Shown one piece after another: positions 2,890-20,567 of a DNA stretch of 64,000 bases. The position numbers and the translations under genes were made by a program. Within the stretch, counting starts at the first letter, position 1. Every line of letters starts with the position of its first letter. The stretch lies in assembly GCF_002814095.1 (NCBI RefSeq), contig NZ_CP021913.1, positions 2,390,001 through 2,454,000 of the forward strand, in the 5' to 3' direction. The stretch comes from Sagittula sp. P11 (GTDB lineage: Bacteria; Pseudomonadota; Alphaproteobacteria; Rhodobacterales; Rhodobacteraceae). The notes under the pieces were generated by a model. The model saw only the letters and a program-made list of their open reading frames with translations. It made no database searches and was not told the DNA's origin.

Positions 2890-2966
2890 CGCGGGGTGGA
2901 GCAGCCCGGTAGCTCGTCAGGCTCATAACCTGAAGGTCGTAGGTTCAAATCCTACCCCCGCAACCA
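2890..2966 (+). tRNA. Initiator tRNA-Met (CAU), tRNA-fMet
   Basis: A 77-nt cloverleaf with encoded CCA. The anticodon CAT is at 2924-2926. The first base C opposes A at position 72, the unpaired 1-72 position that marks initiator tRNAs. It lies at the end of the rRNA operon, a common position in Rhodobacteraceae. From 2922 onward it is identical to a second copy at 20521-20567, so this gene is the integration site of the adjacent element and its 3' part is element-derived or core sequence. Confidence 0.96.
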
Positions 2967-2968
2967 AA
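2922..2968 (+). repeat. attL core (47-bp direct repeat, tRNA-fMet 3' part)
   Basis: The 47 bases beginning CTCATAACCTGAAGG within the anticodon arm and ending in CAACCAAA are repeated exactly at 20521-20567. The flanking bases differ on both sides. The copy here completes a functional tRNA; the distant copy is only a tRNA fragment. This is the signature of tyrosine-integrase insertion into a tRNA gene. Confidence 0.95.
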
Positions 2969-2995
2969 ATTACCAACAAGATATCAAACACTTAG

Positions 2996-3016
2996 GCCGC
3001 CCTCAGGGCGGCTTTT
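2996..3016 (+). terminator. Rho-independent terminator just inside attL
   Basis: Stem GCCGCCC / GGGCGGC with loop TCA, followed by TTTT. It lies 30 bp after the tRNA CCA and inside the element, so it stops rRNA-operon transcription from entering the element's oppositely oriented genes. The host's original terminator appears to be the one at 20591-20618. Confidence 0.85.
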
Positions 3017-3148
3017 GTGTGTCGCGTCGTGTCGCAAGCCCGTCCCGAACTCTTCCCAAAGATTCCAAAGGCTTACGACCAGCCCCGATTCCTCCGTGCA
3101 ACACGGATGCGACACGGGACAGGGGCCTTGTTCGCGGGACGTTCGCTG
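3017..3148. other. Non-coding att-proximal segment with repeated motifs
   Basis: No gene is seen. Two copies of GTGTCGC(G/A) lie exactly 10 bp apart (3019-3026 and 3029-3036), and an inverted copy TGCGACAC lies at 3108-3115. A further inverted copy is at 20439-20446 near attR. TCTTCCCAAAGATT (3051-3064) and CTCCGTGCAACACG (3092-3105) recur with one mismatch each at 20412-20425 and 20434-20447. They could be arm-type binding sites for the integrase or excisionase. Confidence 0.45.
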
Positions 3149-3739
3149 TTAGATGCCGCTGTTCCGGAGGCGGCGATAGGTCGCCTCCCGATCCGCGTCG
3201 ATACGCGGTGGCGGATAGGGAAGCGCATCTTCATAGCCTTCCGCCACCGCTGCGCCGTCAGCGCGGAAGCGGTTGTAGACCTCCAGAAGCTCTCGACCGA
3301 CATGATCTGGCAGAGGCTGTCGCCGCGACCGAAACTTGCTGGCGAACTGCGCGACAGGGCTGCCGCGCCTGACATCGTTGATCATGTGGATGAGGGTCGG
3401 AACGTCGGAAGCACCGTAGTTGTTCACGAACGTCGGGGCGCTGTCATATCGCAGCGGCATGGCCGATGGCTCCCAGGTGGCCTCGCCGAACATGCCGTGG
3501 TGAAGCATCCTGACTGGTGGAGTGACATGGACAAGCTTGATCCCCAGCTGGCCATTTTGGGCAAACGCGAACCGTGCGCCGTTGTGCTCGGTCAGCTTCT
3601 TCGGGTTCATCAGGTTCTTCCAATGGCATCCTGTGCAGCCAAAGCTTCCGAATTCCCACAGGGGATCCGTTCTCATCTCGTTCGGATCATCGAGCCGAGG
3701 CTGTCGGAGAATAACGATGACGATGCGATGCTCAGCCAT
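3149..3739 (-). CDS. Uncharacterised 196-aa protein with CTGC motif, partner of Nmad3 gene
   Basis: I do not recognise a named family. The ATG at 3739 is preferred because it overlaps the stop of the upstream gene by 8 bp (ATGGCTGA), the usual arrangement for coupled genes; an earlier in-frame ATG exists at 3811. The protein opens with a hydrophobic strand (HRIVIVILRQP), then has a Cys-x-x-Cys segment (FGSFGCTGCHWKNLMNP) near residues 30-45. A conserved-looking stretch (FAFAQNGQLGIKLVHVTPP) and a charged helical C-terminus follow. No transmembrane segment is visible. The Cys pair and several His residues could bind a metal. It is the last gene of a two-gene cargo operon abutting attL, the usual accessory position in phage satellites. 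Defence or counter-defence is an inference from position only. Confidence 0.7.
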   Translation of the reverse strand: MAEHRIVIVILRQPRLDDPNEMRTDPLWEFGSFGCTGCHWKNLMNPKKLTEHNGARFAFAQNGQLGIKLVHVTPPVRMLHHGMFGEATWEPSAMPLRYDSAPTFVNNYGASDVPTLIHMINDVRRGSPVAQFASKFRSRRQPLPDHVGRELLEVYNRFRADGAAVAEGYEDALPYPPPRIDADREATYRRLRNSGI

Positions 3740-18264: not shown

Positions 18265-18451
18265 CGCGGCGGGGTCTCCTGAGTCTGTTTCGGACTTTAG
18301 GTTCAAAACCTCTGGCGCACAAGAGAGTTTCGGACTAAAAATCCATTACTGGCTTCCGAGGCGGTCGGTTTCGCCTCGCTATGCCGGAAGAAGAATGGCA
18401 ATGCGGAAGGCTGACGATGCCCAACGCATTGTTAGGGATAGGGAAAGTCGG
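18265..18451. promoter_or_regulatory. Divergent promoter region between regulator and integrase genes
   Basis: 187 bp with no gene. The leftward replication/packaging operon and the rightward integrase both begin here, so promoters and operators for the lysogeny decision should lie in it. AT-richer bases occur around 18295-18350 (for example AAAAATCCATTACTGG). No clear sigma-70 boxes can be claimed. Confidence 0.45.
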
Positions 18452-19555
18452 ATGGCCACGATCCGGAAGAGAACGCTGCCCTCGGGCCTGGTGCGCTGGC
18501 AGGTGGATTTCACTGACCAAGCCGGCAAGCGCCGCTCGAAGCTGTTCCCGCGCCGGAAGGATGCCGACGTCTATCTCGTCAAGGTCCGCTCGCTCGTCGC
18601 CAACAACACCTATCTGGCCGACAGCGAGAGCATCACCGTGGCCGACGCCGCCAAGGCGTGGCTCGACCACTGCGAGGTGCGGTGCAAGACGGGGCGGCGG
18701 ATGGAGCGGTCCACGCTCCGCGGCTACAGCGACTATGTTCGGCTGCACATCACGGTTCCCGAAATCGGGATCGGGGACAAGCTGATCGTCCAGCTGACCC
18801 GCCGCCATGTGAACGAGTTCCGCGACCGGCTGCTGCTGAACGGCCGGTCCGAGCATCTGACGCGGCGCGCGCTCTCGGTGCTGAAGCTCATCCTCGACCA
18901 CGCCATCGACAACGGCCAGCTCTTCACCAACGCTGCGCAGGGCGTGCGGGTGATCAAGTCGAGCCGGATCGACTACAAGGCGCCGGTGCCGTCGAAGGAG
19001 ACGATCCGCGCGCTGATCGAGGCGGCCGACGAGGACTTCAAACCGCACCTGATCGTCTCGGCGCTGACCGGCCTGCGCGCCTCGGAACTGCGCGGCCTGC
19101 GCTGGCGGGACGTCGATTTCGACAAGGGCTTCATCCACGTGCGCCAACGCGCCGACGCCTACAACCAGATGGGCGAGCCGAAATCGCGCGCGGGCTATCG
19201 CGACATTCCGGCCGGGCCGATGGTGCTGAACGCCCTGCGCCGCTGGAAACTGCGTTGTCCGAAAAGCGACCTCGGACTGGTGTTCCCCGCGCCGCGCGGT
19301 GGCGTTCTCCAGCACACCAACACGCAGTCCCGGTTCCGCAAGCTGCAGGAGGACATCGGCGTGAAGCTGCGCTGGCACGACCTGCGCCATTTCGCGGTGT
19401 CGCTCTGGATCGAGCAGGGCTTCTCGATCAAGGAGGTGATGACCTTCGCAGGCCATTCCTCGATCCAGATGACCATGGAGCGCTACGGCCACCTGTTCCC
19501 GTCGCCCGACCACCAGAATGCCATGGCCGAGGTCGAGGCCAAGCTGCTGGGGTGA
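18452..19555 (+). CDS. Tyrosine recombinase (phage integrase)
   Basis: 367 aa from the ATG at 18452-18454, giving MATIRKRTLPSGLVRWQVDF, the expected arm-binding start. A SAM-like core-binding domain spans about 60-165. The catalytic domain shows the Arg box (ALTGLRASELRGLRWRDVDF), the HDLRHFAVSLW box with His-x-x-Arg, and GHSSIQMTMERYGHL with the second His and the catalytic Tyr. It recombines the 47-bp tRNA-fMet core. It lies nearer to attR than attL, with one orphan gene between it and the end. Confidence 0.95.
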   Translation: MATIRKRTLPSGLVRWQVDFTDQAGKRRSKLFPRRKDADVYLVKVRSLVANNTYLADSESITVADAAKAWLDHCEVRCKTGRRMERSTLRGYSDYVRLHITVPEIGIGDKLIVQLTRRHVNEFRDRLLLNGRSEHLTRRALSVLKLILDHAIDNGQLFTNAAQGVRVIKSSRIDYKAPVPSKETIRALIEAADEDFKPHLIVSALTGLRASELRGLRWRDVDFDKGFIHVRQRADAYNQMGEPKSRAGYRDIPAGPMVLNALRRWKLRCPKSDLGLVFPAPRGGVLQHTNTQSRFRKLQEDIGVKLRWHDLRHFAVSLWIEQGFSIKEVMTFAGHSSIQMTMERYGHLFPSPDHQNAMAEVEAKLLG

Positions 19556-19653
19556 TCGATTCCGAGTGGCGGCTGCTGGATGCTTCGCCCGGTGCACCCG
19601 TATGGCCGGGATCGGCCCTCACCAACGCCCCTGTGGCGGGGCTTGGGGCCGCT

Positions 19654-20397
19654 CTACCGAAATGGCTCAGGCTCATAGGCCGCCTTAGCCACCACCTTGC
19701 TGGCATCCCCGCGGGATCGATAGCGGCCAATCATGTCGCCGCTGGCGGCGTCGTCGACCTCCTGCACCCGATAGAGCGTCAGGCTCTTGTCGCTGTTTCG
19801 CTTGAGCTGGAAGACCCGGCCATTCTTGCGGCAATAGAAGAATTTCGAGCCCTTGATCTGGGTCCATGGACAATCGGCGTAGGACAGGAGCCGCCGCTCC
19901 CGCTCCAGTCGCGCCTCTTCCGACCGCCGCTCGGTCTCCGCACGCTCCTCGTCGCGCAAGCGCTGCCACTGCGCGCCGACATAATCCGATATGCGCCCGA
20001 TGATGGCGGGCACTTCCGTGCCAGCCTCTTTCTCGGCCTGGTAGATGGCCAGACATTCGGCCTCGAGCTTCGGTTCCGGATCTCCGAGGTATTCCTCCTC
20101 GATCATGGCCTTCATGCGCTGCTCGAGATCGGTCATCGTCAGAGCCGGACCAGGAAGGCCATTCAGGAAGGCGAGCATGTCGTCCTTCGGGATCCAGCAG
20201 TCTATCGCCGAGGCCAGGACCTTGTCCCGCGGGCCTTCCCACTTCCTCCAGACGGAGCTGTCCTGATCGAGTTTCGTGACGATCTCGAGGGCCAGTTTGG
20301 CGAGGGACCGCTGCTCTCGCATGTGGCGCAGGGAGGGGCTGCGCACGTAATCCGCCAGTAGGCTGAAAACTTCCGAGGTTCGCTGATTCATGAACAT
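19654..20397 (-). CDS. Uncharacterised 247-aa protein adjacent to attR
   Basis: Unknown family. Starts at ATG 20397 or 20391. The N-terminal 100 residues are helical (RTSEVFSLLADYVRSPSLRH). The middle has a coiled-coil-like charged stretch (RLRDEERAETERRSEEARLE). The C-terminal 70 residues form a compact beta domain (WTQIKGSKFFYCRKNGRVFQ then LKRNSDKSLTLYRVQEVDD). It is transcribed toward the integrase from the attR edge and is separate from all other element genes, so it is probably cargo. No toxin or enzyme motif is evident. Confidence 0.7.
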   Translation of the reverse strand: MFMNQRTSEVFSLLADYVRSPSLRHMREQRSLAKLALEIVTKLDQDSSVWRKWEGPRDKVLASAIDCWIPKDDMLAFLNGLPGPALTMTDLEQRMKAMIEEEYLGDPEPKLEAECLAIYQAEKEAGTEVPAIIGRISDYVGAQWQRLRDEERAETERRSEEARLERERRLLSYADCPWTQIKGSKFFYCRKNGRVFQLKRNSDKSLTLYRVQEVDDAASGDMIGRYRSRGDASKVVAKAAYEPEPFR

Positions 20398-20520
20398 GCG
20401 GCTTTCCCGTTTCTTCCCAATGATTTGCGTCCGCTCCGTGCGACACGACGCCGACGTCGCCCACCCAAAATCTCTCTAAATATTTGCTTTTGAAAGACTA
20501 TTCCGGCCCCCTCGGGTTGC

Positions 20521-20567
20521 CTCATAACCTGAAGGTCGTAGGTTCAAATCCTACCCCCGCAACCAAA
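20521..20567 (+). repeat. attR core (47-bp tRNA-fMet fragment)
   Basis: Exact copy of 2922-2968, starting in the anticodon arm and ending after the CCA. Upstream bases here do not complete a tRNA, so this is a tRNA remnant marking the element's right end. Confidence 0.95.

Follow-up and report, generated by a model that had tools for sequence, protein, structure and literature searches.

We analyzed a window of 64,000 nucleotides from Sagittula sp. P11 (contig NZ_CP021913.1, positions 2,390,001 to 2,454,000; positions below are counted from the first letter of the window). It contains an integrated element of ~17.6 kb that encodes its own phage head and packaging proteins, and we identified no tail or lysis genes in it. 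Based on sequence comparisons, this element is probably a functional phage satellite: lambda-type, capsid-encoding, tail-less, and using the tails of helper phages. The anatomy of its family, the selection on its head genes, its near-fixed size, and a single clade for its large terminase subunit (TerL) give good support to a satellite that is mobile, encodes a capsid, and has no tail. We infer excision, particle formation, tail piracy, the identity of the helper, and the roles of the putative replication origin and packaging (cos) site.

The element is bounded by a perfect 47-nucleotide direct repeat (2922-2968 and 20521-20567, spaced by 17,599 bases). The left copy overlaps the 3' part of a tRNA-fMet gene (2890-2966), which follows a 23S-5S rRNA unit (Rfam) and is probably of the initiator (fMet) type, judging from the rRNA-operon context. 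To call genes, we compared open frames with Pfam (16 of the element's proteins), PHROGs (11 of them, or all but the integrase and the 322-, 683-, 230-, and 81-amino-acid (aa) open reading frames (ORFs)), NCBIfam, PADLOC, and the PDB. This bears out much of the original prediction, which was made from the letters alone and described a 17.6-kb element between attachment (att) repeats at tRNA-fMet, with genes for an integrase, a primase, both terminase subunits (TerS and TerL), a portal, a protease-capsid protein, a gpW-like protein, and a decoration protein. All of these are open frames with family matches. The call of a primase-helicase stands in part: Pfam finds Prim-Pol and PriCT_2 domains, and the helicase half has PHROG matches only. 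Similarly, the proposed AlpA-like helix-turn-helix protein is an 81-aa ORF that is conserved across the family but has no match in Pfam, NCBIfam, or the PDB; we take it to be AlpA-like from its motif alone.

As the original prediction had claimed, the proteins that were covered matched no family of tail or lysis genes in Pfam or PHROGs. We also ran 17 tail, neck, and endolysin queries (proteins of the phages RcKemmy, CRP-811, and AcaML1 and of a siphoprophage in the same genome) against 131 related loci, which include contigs under two identifiers and five primase-only loci (L028, L029, and L067-L069). There were zero matches inside the element. Only L036 and L178 matched the tail queries, both outside the att repeat (in L178, the repeat is a 9-mismatch match). 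The short space after the head genes is a stronger argument than the homology queries: the distance from the cement gene to the att repeat is 463-2,246 bases in 24 loci, and 2.25 kb or less beyond the head genes is too little room for a tail module. We rejected a complete tailed prophage, as tail and lysis modules were not found between the att sites. In L036 (Actibacterium), a remnant of a siphophage tail module (L036:298-2347, 87-97% identical) adjoins the satellite's att site, outside it.

The element belongs to a family with a conserved plan. A search with the primase found 25 loci in contigs from one genome per species and 30 loci in IMG/VR. A TerL search of IMG/VR gave at least 592 relatives, of which the best 80 were kept; 5 of these were already among the primase-found loci. 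(The IMG/VR set has 105 locus identifiers, some of which belong to one contig.) The common gene order is integrase, regulator, alpA-like gene, primase, TerS, TerL, cargo, portal, capsid, gpW, and cement. TerL, portal, capsid, and gpW have this order in 68/68 loci that contain all four genes and have TerL above 65% identity, a count that includes contigs under two identifiers. Of the 25 genome loci, 21 have an integrase with 90-99% identity across the aligned part; in L028 and L029 the identity is only 30-31%, and no integrase was found in L020 or L032. Going by organism names, we take 22 of the 25 to be from Rhodobacteraceae, and the best reading is that this is a family mainly of Rhodobacterales. 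In L028 (Terasakiella) and L029 (Paramagnetospirillum), the primase is 62% identical and no head genes were detected, so the replication module may occur in other elements.

Within a sample of 394 genomes of the host family, TerL with at least 87% identity is present in 17. In genomes G092, G215, G317, G341, and G344, the satellite's TerL is 94-96% identical, while the window's aminotransferase, used as a single marker gene, is 70-79% identical. Three congeners whose aminotransferase is 81-98% identical have no match to the primase. These figures support horizontal spread of the satellite, with one marker gene as the host yardstick.

In a tree of TerL, 31 family rows (two of which are the window's own) form one clade (Shimodaira-Hasegawa approximate likelihood ratio support of 98). 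This is a quick tree with long deep branches. Tail-lessness can be seen in only some rows of the clade, since several represent partial contigs. L140 and L173/L179 (62-63% identity in TerL, with gpW behind the capsid gene) branch next to the family clade, and L169 joins near them on a long branch. Outside the satellite clade lies the group of AcaML1, which includes tailed phages. L179 (G344:C35) is near a tRNA-Gln and has no tail match; L140 is too short to tell.

These comparisons bear on whether the element is a decaying prophage, whose tail and lysis genes were deleted and whose mobility was lost. Along most of its length, the satellite's capsid has 34-38% identity to capsids from tailed phages, and some relatives are plainly decayed, as would be expected of prophage remnants. 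But all 68 loci share the plan in which gpW follows the capsid gene, a cargo slot is found in 76 loci, TerL forms a single clade, and the length from att to att is near-constant. Selection on the head genes also argues against decay. We estimated the ratio of nonsynonymous to synonymous substitution rates (dN/dS) by the Nei-Gojobori method between the window and up to 13 relatives, hand-picked for spread. The ratio was 0.07-0.17 for the capsid fusion and 0.08-0.15 for the portal (13 comparisons each), 0.08-0.14 for TerL, 0.04-0.32 for TerS, 0.12-0.30 for the primase, 0.12-0.28 for gpW, and 0.06-0.47 for cement. These values indicate that the head genes are under purifying selection. The window's core frames are open, and we did not encounter relaxed selection or broken core genes. 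(Inactivating mutations in terL, capsid, or int were the other contrary evidence that the original prediction had named; the window's frames are open and its head genes have dN/dS of 0.07-0.17.) Given the common anatomy, the selection, and the TerL tree, we rejected the decayed prophage, which we consider highly improbable.

Among 11 intact elements, including the window's, the length from att to att is 15.7-18.1 kb (mean 17.19 kb, standard deviation 0.61 kb). The decayed L034, L037, and L064 were left out of this sample, as was L084, whose length and gaps equal those of L083; the window's element and L175 were added. The interval between TerL and portal ranges from 2.2 to 5.2 kb among the same 11 elements. 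A near-constant total length despite a variable slot fits a capsid limit. Slot size and end-arm size are negatively correlated, which is not significant (Spearman -0.53, p = 0.096); a permutation test on the variance of their sum gave p = 0.011.

The interval between TerL and portal is a cargo slot. Across 76 loci (after exact repeats of the slot sequence were removed), it spans 2,119-7,661 bases, with a median of 3,429. In tailed relatives (RcKemmy, AcaML1, CRP-811, and LPPA33), gpW or a small ORF lies at this place: in RcKemmy, gpW separates TerL from portal and there is no cargo slot, and the gap of CRP-811 holds a 197-aa ORF. In the prophage of the same genome, the gap is ~0.3 kb. The GC content of the slots is 0.49-0.64; that of the core head genes in the window is about 0.68-0.71. 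The slots, with L140 and L144 left out, gave 184 ORFs of at least 110 aa in 91 clusters, and representatives of all 91 were scanned. (We picked the longest ORFs, as a caller based on GC at third codon positions is poor on low-GC cargo.) Among the 25 most-populated families of the 76 with Pfam matches and of the 295 with PADLOC matches, Pfam listed EcoRI, XhoI, XamI, AccI, BsuBI/PstI, and MmeI-type enzymes; Eco57I and other DNA methylases; HSDR_N, Methylase_S, ResIII, and nSTAND NTPases; and, outside of defense, peptidase M19, Mutator transposase, DHDPS, and DAO. PADLOC listed type I and type IIG systems, DrmMI, and mad genes. The slot often holds restriction-modification and other defense genes.

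The window's own cargo has zero matches in PADLOC and NCBIfam, and the pair of 322- and 683-aa genes in its slot has no family match in Pfam, PADLOC, or NCBIfam. The slots of L104 and L091 also hold this pair, and L174 has part of it in its slot; the 683-aa homologs in the same slot are 79% (L104) and 27% (L091) identical. Matches of the 683-aa protein in the PDB were at chance level, and the AlphaFold model of the 322-aa protein has a predicted local distance difference test score (pLDDT) of 36, which is too poor to use. The right-hand cargo includes an Nmad3 gene, which the original prediction did not name.

The satellite's strategy resembles that of the capsid-forming phage-inducible chromosomal islands (cf-PICIs). 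As described in PMC10690885, PMC10803314, and PMC11389934, cf-PICIs encode their own capsid, portal, protease, connectors, terminases, and HNH endonuclease, use helper tails, and comprise three published capsid radiations. Like cf-PICIs (such as EcCIEDL933), the window's element has a small genome with an integrase and att repeats, its own capsid, portal, protease, and connector genes, TerS and TerL, and a primase, and no tail or lysis genes were detected in it. The original prediction had assigned it to the cf-PICI plan, and the likeness in strategy holds. The differences are that its terminase and portal are of the GpA/lambda type, that its protease and capsid are fused, that gpW follows the capsid gene, that there is a cargo slot inside, that the hosts are Rhodobacterales, and that no HNH endonuclease was found. 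No HNH family was matched at E <= 0.05 in Pfam among the 16 proteins of the element, and PMC10690885 counts this enzyme among cf-PICI functions. The common strategy and a size fairly near the cf-PICI average of 14 kb (PMC10803314) speak for a cf-PICI in the strict sense that is new only in its host group. However, PMC10803314 gives mainly enterobacteria and Firmicutes as hosts, with Rhodobacterales not among the main ones. Given the lack of an HNH match and the lambda/GpA type of the packaging and head proteins (PF05876, PF05136, and PF25209), we think strict membership in the cf-PICIs unlikely.

The Streptomyces satellites MulchRoom and MiniFlayer also have their own head and packaging genes, and a helper-encoded tail has been proposed for MulchRoom (PMC10690885). 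They lack a recognizable primase and have direct terminal repeats, whereas the window's element has its own primase and is integrated between att sites. RcKemmy-like siphophages of Rhodobacter and the siphoprophage of the same genome are related to the satellite in TerL (43-45% identity), portal (34-37%), the protease-capsid fusion (35-36%), and cement (40-47%). Unlike in the satellite, tail and lysis genes follow. Since tailed Rhodobacter phages have a protease-capsid fusion, this fusion, which the original prediction had named among the features that would extend the known set, is not a novelty in itself. In the phage collection, the TerL of the Acidithiobacillus phage AcaML1 ranked first (59.7%); unlike the satellite, AcaML1 is a tailed phage of 59 kb with sheath and baseplate genes and with separate protease and capsid genes. 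Satellites of the P4, phage-inducible chromosomal island (PICI), and phage-inducible chromosomal minimalist island (PICMI) types have a plan of integrase, AlpA-type regulator, and primase and rely on helper capsids. The window's element resembles them in its integrase, its primase, a putative AlpA-like ORF, and its small size (PMC10803314 for the PICMI model) but differs in having its own capsid. Going by titles and the beginnings of abstracts in the open literature, we found no paper about capsid-encoding satellites of Rhodobacterales (most subscription papers and all bioRxiv preprints were outside this scope), and PMC8682789 and PMC13345588 do not change this.

The genome of Sagittula sp. 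P11 contains a second TerL of the GpA type, in the siphoprophage ~0.2 Mb away. This prophage has the same family of protease-capsid fusion as the satellite, and it encodes a tape measure, a minor tail protein, a tail terminator, a tail chaperone, and an endolysin. Judging from these sequences, this lambda-like siphophage group is our best candidate for the helper. It is also found in relatives, such as G215 and G092, and its presence in these genomes and in Sagittula sp. P11 makes tail piracy directly testable. The siphophage minor tail gene is present in 93 of the 394 family genomes (E <= 1e-60). It is found in 12 of the 17 satellite genomes and in 81 of the 377 others (odds ratio 8.8, p = 3.5e-5, with host kinship outside the model), and the tape measure gene is in the same 12. 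The 17 are from 20 TerL-positive genomes; G127, G234, and G407 (49-50% identity in TerL) were left out, and G127 and G234 do carry the siphophage tail marker. As a control, a contractile sheath gene is in 3/17 and 26/377 (p = 0.12). Across 10 genomes (G274 was left out, as it gave no full-length identity), the identity of the satellite correlates with that of the tail (rho = 0.69, p = 0.027, uncorrected for host kinship). The co-occurrence and the candidate helper point to tail piracy. The siphophage tape-measure gene has 17 matches in G412, of which several are partial or contain a stop.

The element might instead act in the cell independently of helper tails, either as a tail-less particle or as a carrier of defense genes that is kept by the host. 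This would account for the defense cargo, and no tail genes were found; cf-PICIs are reported to release tail-less capsids that meet tails later. But the portal and gpW-type adaptor are kept under purifying selection, no lysis gene was matched, and the satellite is associated with siphophage tail genes. We consider such helper-tail-independent action very unlikely.

Several observations weigh against a mobile, tail-less satellite that uses helper tails. Some copies are decayed by deletions or stops (L024, L034, L037, and L138), and there is a stop inside TerL of G260, G374, and G007. Homology queries would overlook an unrelated type of tail. In L128, a 290-aa ORF after the cement gene weakly matches a tail family (phrog_7043, E = 3e-7), and single end-arm ORFs in some members match head-morphogenesis families. 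(We scanned 43 end-arm ORFs with PHROG and Pfam, leaving out eight repeat or near-repeat loci; the PHROG results are for 25 of 29 families.) No exact empty attachment site (attB) was found: the rRNA-tRNA stretch was matched in 8/8 relatives searched, and none gave the window's right flank. This comparison is hampered because an insertion sequence (IS) follows the far att repeat. Exact terminal repeats of 20 or more bases, which would mark circular contigs, were absent from 144 loci, many of them partial contigs. No tyrosine integrase is listed in the examined stretch of the siphoprophage and a transposase adjoins its endolysin gene, so this prophage may be defective. The siphophage marker is missing from 5 of the 17 satellite genomes. 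Finally, a second control, the Mu-type portal, is also enriched (6/17 versus 43/377, p = 0.012), so the association may partly reflect general phage load; stratification by the presence of either control marker gave an odds ratio of 8.6 (p = 2.4e-5).

For a satellite with helper tails, we propose the following life cycle. The satellite would integrate into tRNA-fMet by its own integrase and replicate by its own primase, probably from an inverted repeat beside the primase gene. The 17-kb genome would be packaged by its own lambda-type TerS and TerL into a head built of its own portal, protease-capsid fusion, and cement, which its own gpW would close, with no tail. A co-resident or infecting tailed phage would supply the tail and cell lysis; the presumed helper is the lambda-like siphophage group that is present in the same genome and is enriched in satellite-bearing genomes. 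The place that gpW has in tailed relatives would have become a cargo bay for defense genes. We lean slightly towards a broader account, in which the family has a separate lambda-type origin and is one old lineage of Rhodobacterales, the move of gpW to a place behind the capsid gene opened the bay within the cluster of packaging and head genes, exchangeable restriction-modification and other defense systems are ferried in a capsid of fixed capacity, and the tails are from one siphophage group. The family represents the capsid-forming strategy with a different type of packaging and in an environmental order. Defense systems can readily be sought in the slot between TerL and portal, and its host bacteria may exchange such systems by way of this family.

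The 360-nucleotide gap between primase and TerS contains a 15-nucleotide inverted repeat (mean of 0 in shuffled sequences), and a similar motif in both orientations is present in 20 of 42 intergenic sequences, including the window's. This is our candidate for the replication origin. An alignment of these 42 sequences has a partly conserved non-coding stretch beside TerS, at 13990-14060, which we speculate might be the cos site; its position presumes a lambda layout. At the regulator locus, the 230-aa ORF is missing from many members, and other genes fill the interval between integrase and the AlpA-like gene. One cluster of these replacements has 33 ORFs (including repeated contigs) and looks MerR-like by eye. 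This exchange of genes suggests a specificity switch. The 230-aa ORF has a predicted structure with pLDDT of 61 and no Foldseek match in the PDB at E <= 0.001, and a profile search of the PDB gave chance-level matches only.

Table 1. Features of the satellite and its integration site, with positions in the window.
Feature	Position	Strand	Basis or remark
tRNA-fMet (CAT)	2890..2966	+	integration target; ARAGORN, Rfam
Direct repeat, 47 nt, tRNA side	2922..2968	+	100% identical to far copy
Cargo ORF, 220 aa	3149..3811	-	open frame; no Pfam, PHROG, PADLOC, or NCBIfam match
Nmad3 (Nucleotide modification associated domain 3) protein, right-hand cargo	3732..4478	-	PF18754 E=7e-69; start codon inferred from domain extent
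Head decoration / cement protein	4559..4936	-	PF09956 E=2e-27; phrog_122
gpW-like head-tail adaptor, behind capsid gene	4905..5120	-	phrog_2545 E=2e-21; PF02831 only below cut-off
Prohead protease / major capsid fusion, 617 aa	5117..6970	-	NF045541 748 bits; PF25209; phrog_4523
Portal, lambda family	6963..8375	-	PF05136 E=9e-102
Slot cargo, 683 aa	8487..10538	-	open frame; slot homologs in L104, L091
Slot cargo, 322 aa, adjoins 683-aa gene	10538..11506	-	slot homologs in L104, L091, L174
Terminase large subunit, GpA type	11682..13496	-	PF05876, PF20454
Terminase small subunit	13480..13989	-	phrog_57 E=4e-30
Partly conserved non-coding stretch next to TerS; speculative candidate for the cos (packaging) site	13990..14060	-	alignment of 42 intergenic sequences
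Candidate replication origin	14154..14329		TGGTGGGTTTGGTGG at 14154-14168 (+) and 14315-14329 (-); near copy at 14306-14320 (-)
Primase-polymerase, putative helicase half, 893 aa	14349..17030	-	PF09250 (Prim-Pol), PF08707 (PriCT_2); phrog_29234
Small conserved ORF, 108 aa	17034..17360	-	relatives at 32-98% identity
AlpA/excisionase-like ORF, 81 aa	17357..17602	-	conserved across family
Regulator-locus ORF, 230 aa	17614..18306	-	replaced by other genes in other members
Tyrosine integrase, 367 aa	18452..19555	+	PF00589 E=3e-21; start codon chosen by homology
Arm cargo ORF, 247 aa	19654..20397	-	between integrase and far repeat
Direct repeat, 47 nt, far side	20521..20567	+	perfect match to tRNA-side copy

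Copies of the 247-aa arm ORF that are 93-97% identical adjoin the integrase gene in 5 of the 25 genome loci. In the congener G003, the 3' end of tRNA-fMet is repeated ~28.7 kb apart (C1:670779 and 699472-699517), so another element may share the att site. Beyond the window's 23S gene, the assembly has only partial matches to 23S (G000:C1:3602484-3603641). Directly beyond the far att repeat is an IS3-type element (20679-21950; rve and HTH_21, with a second ORF by eye), whose ends we inferred from matches in a congener. It is followed by a TniQ-family gene (21924-23975).

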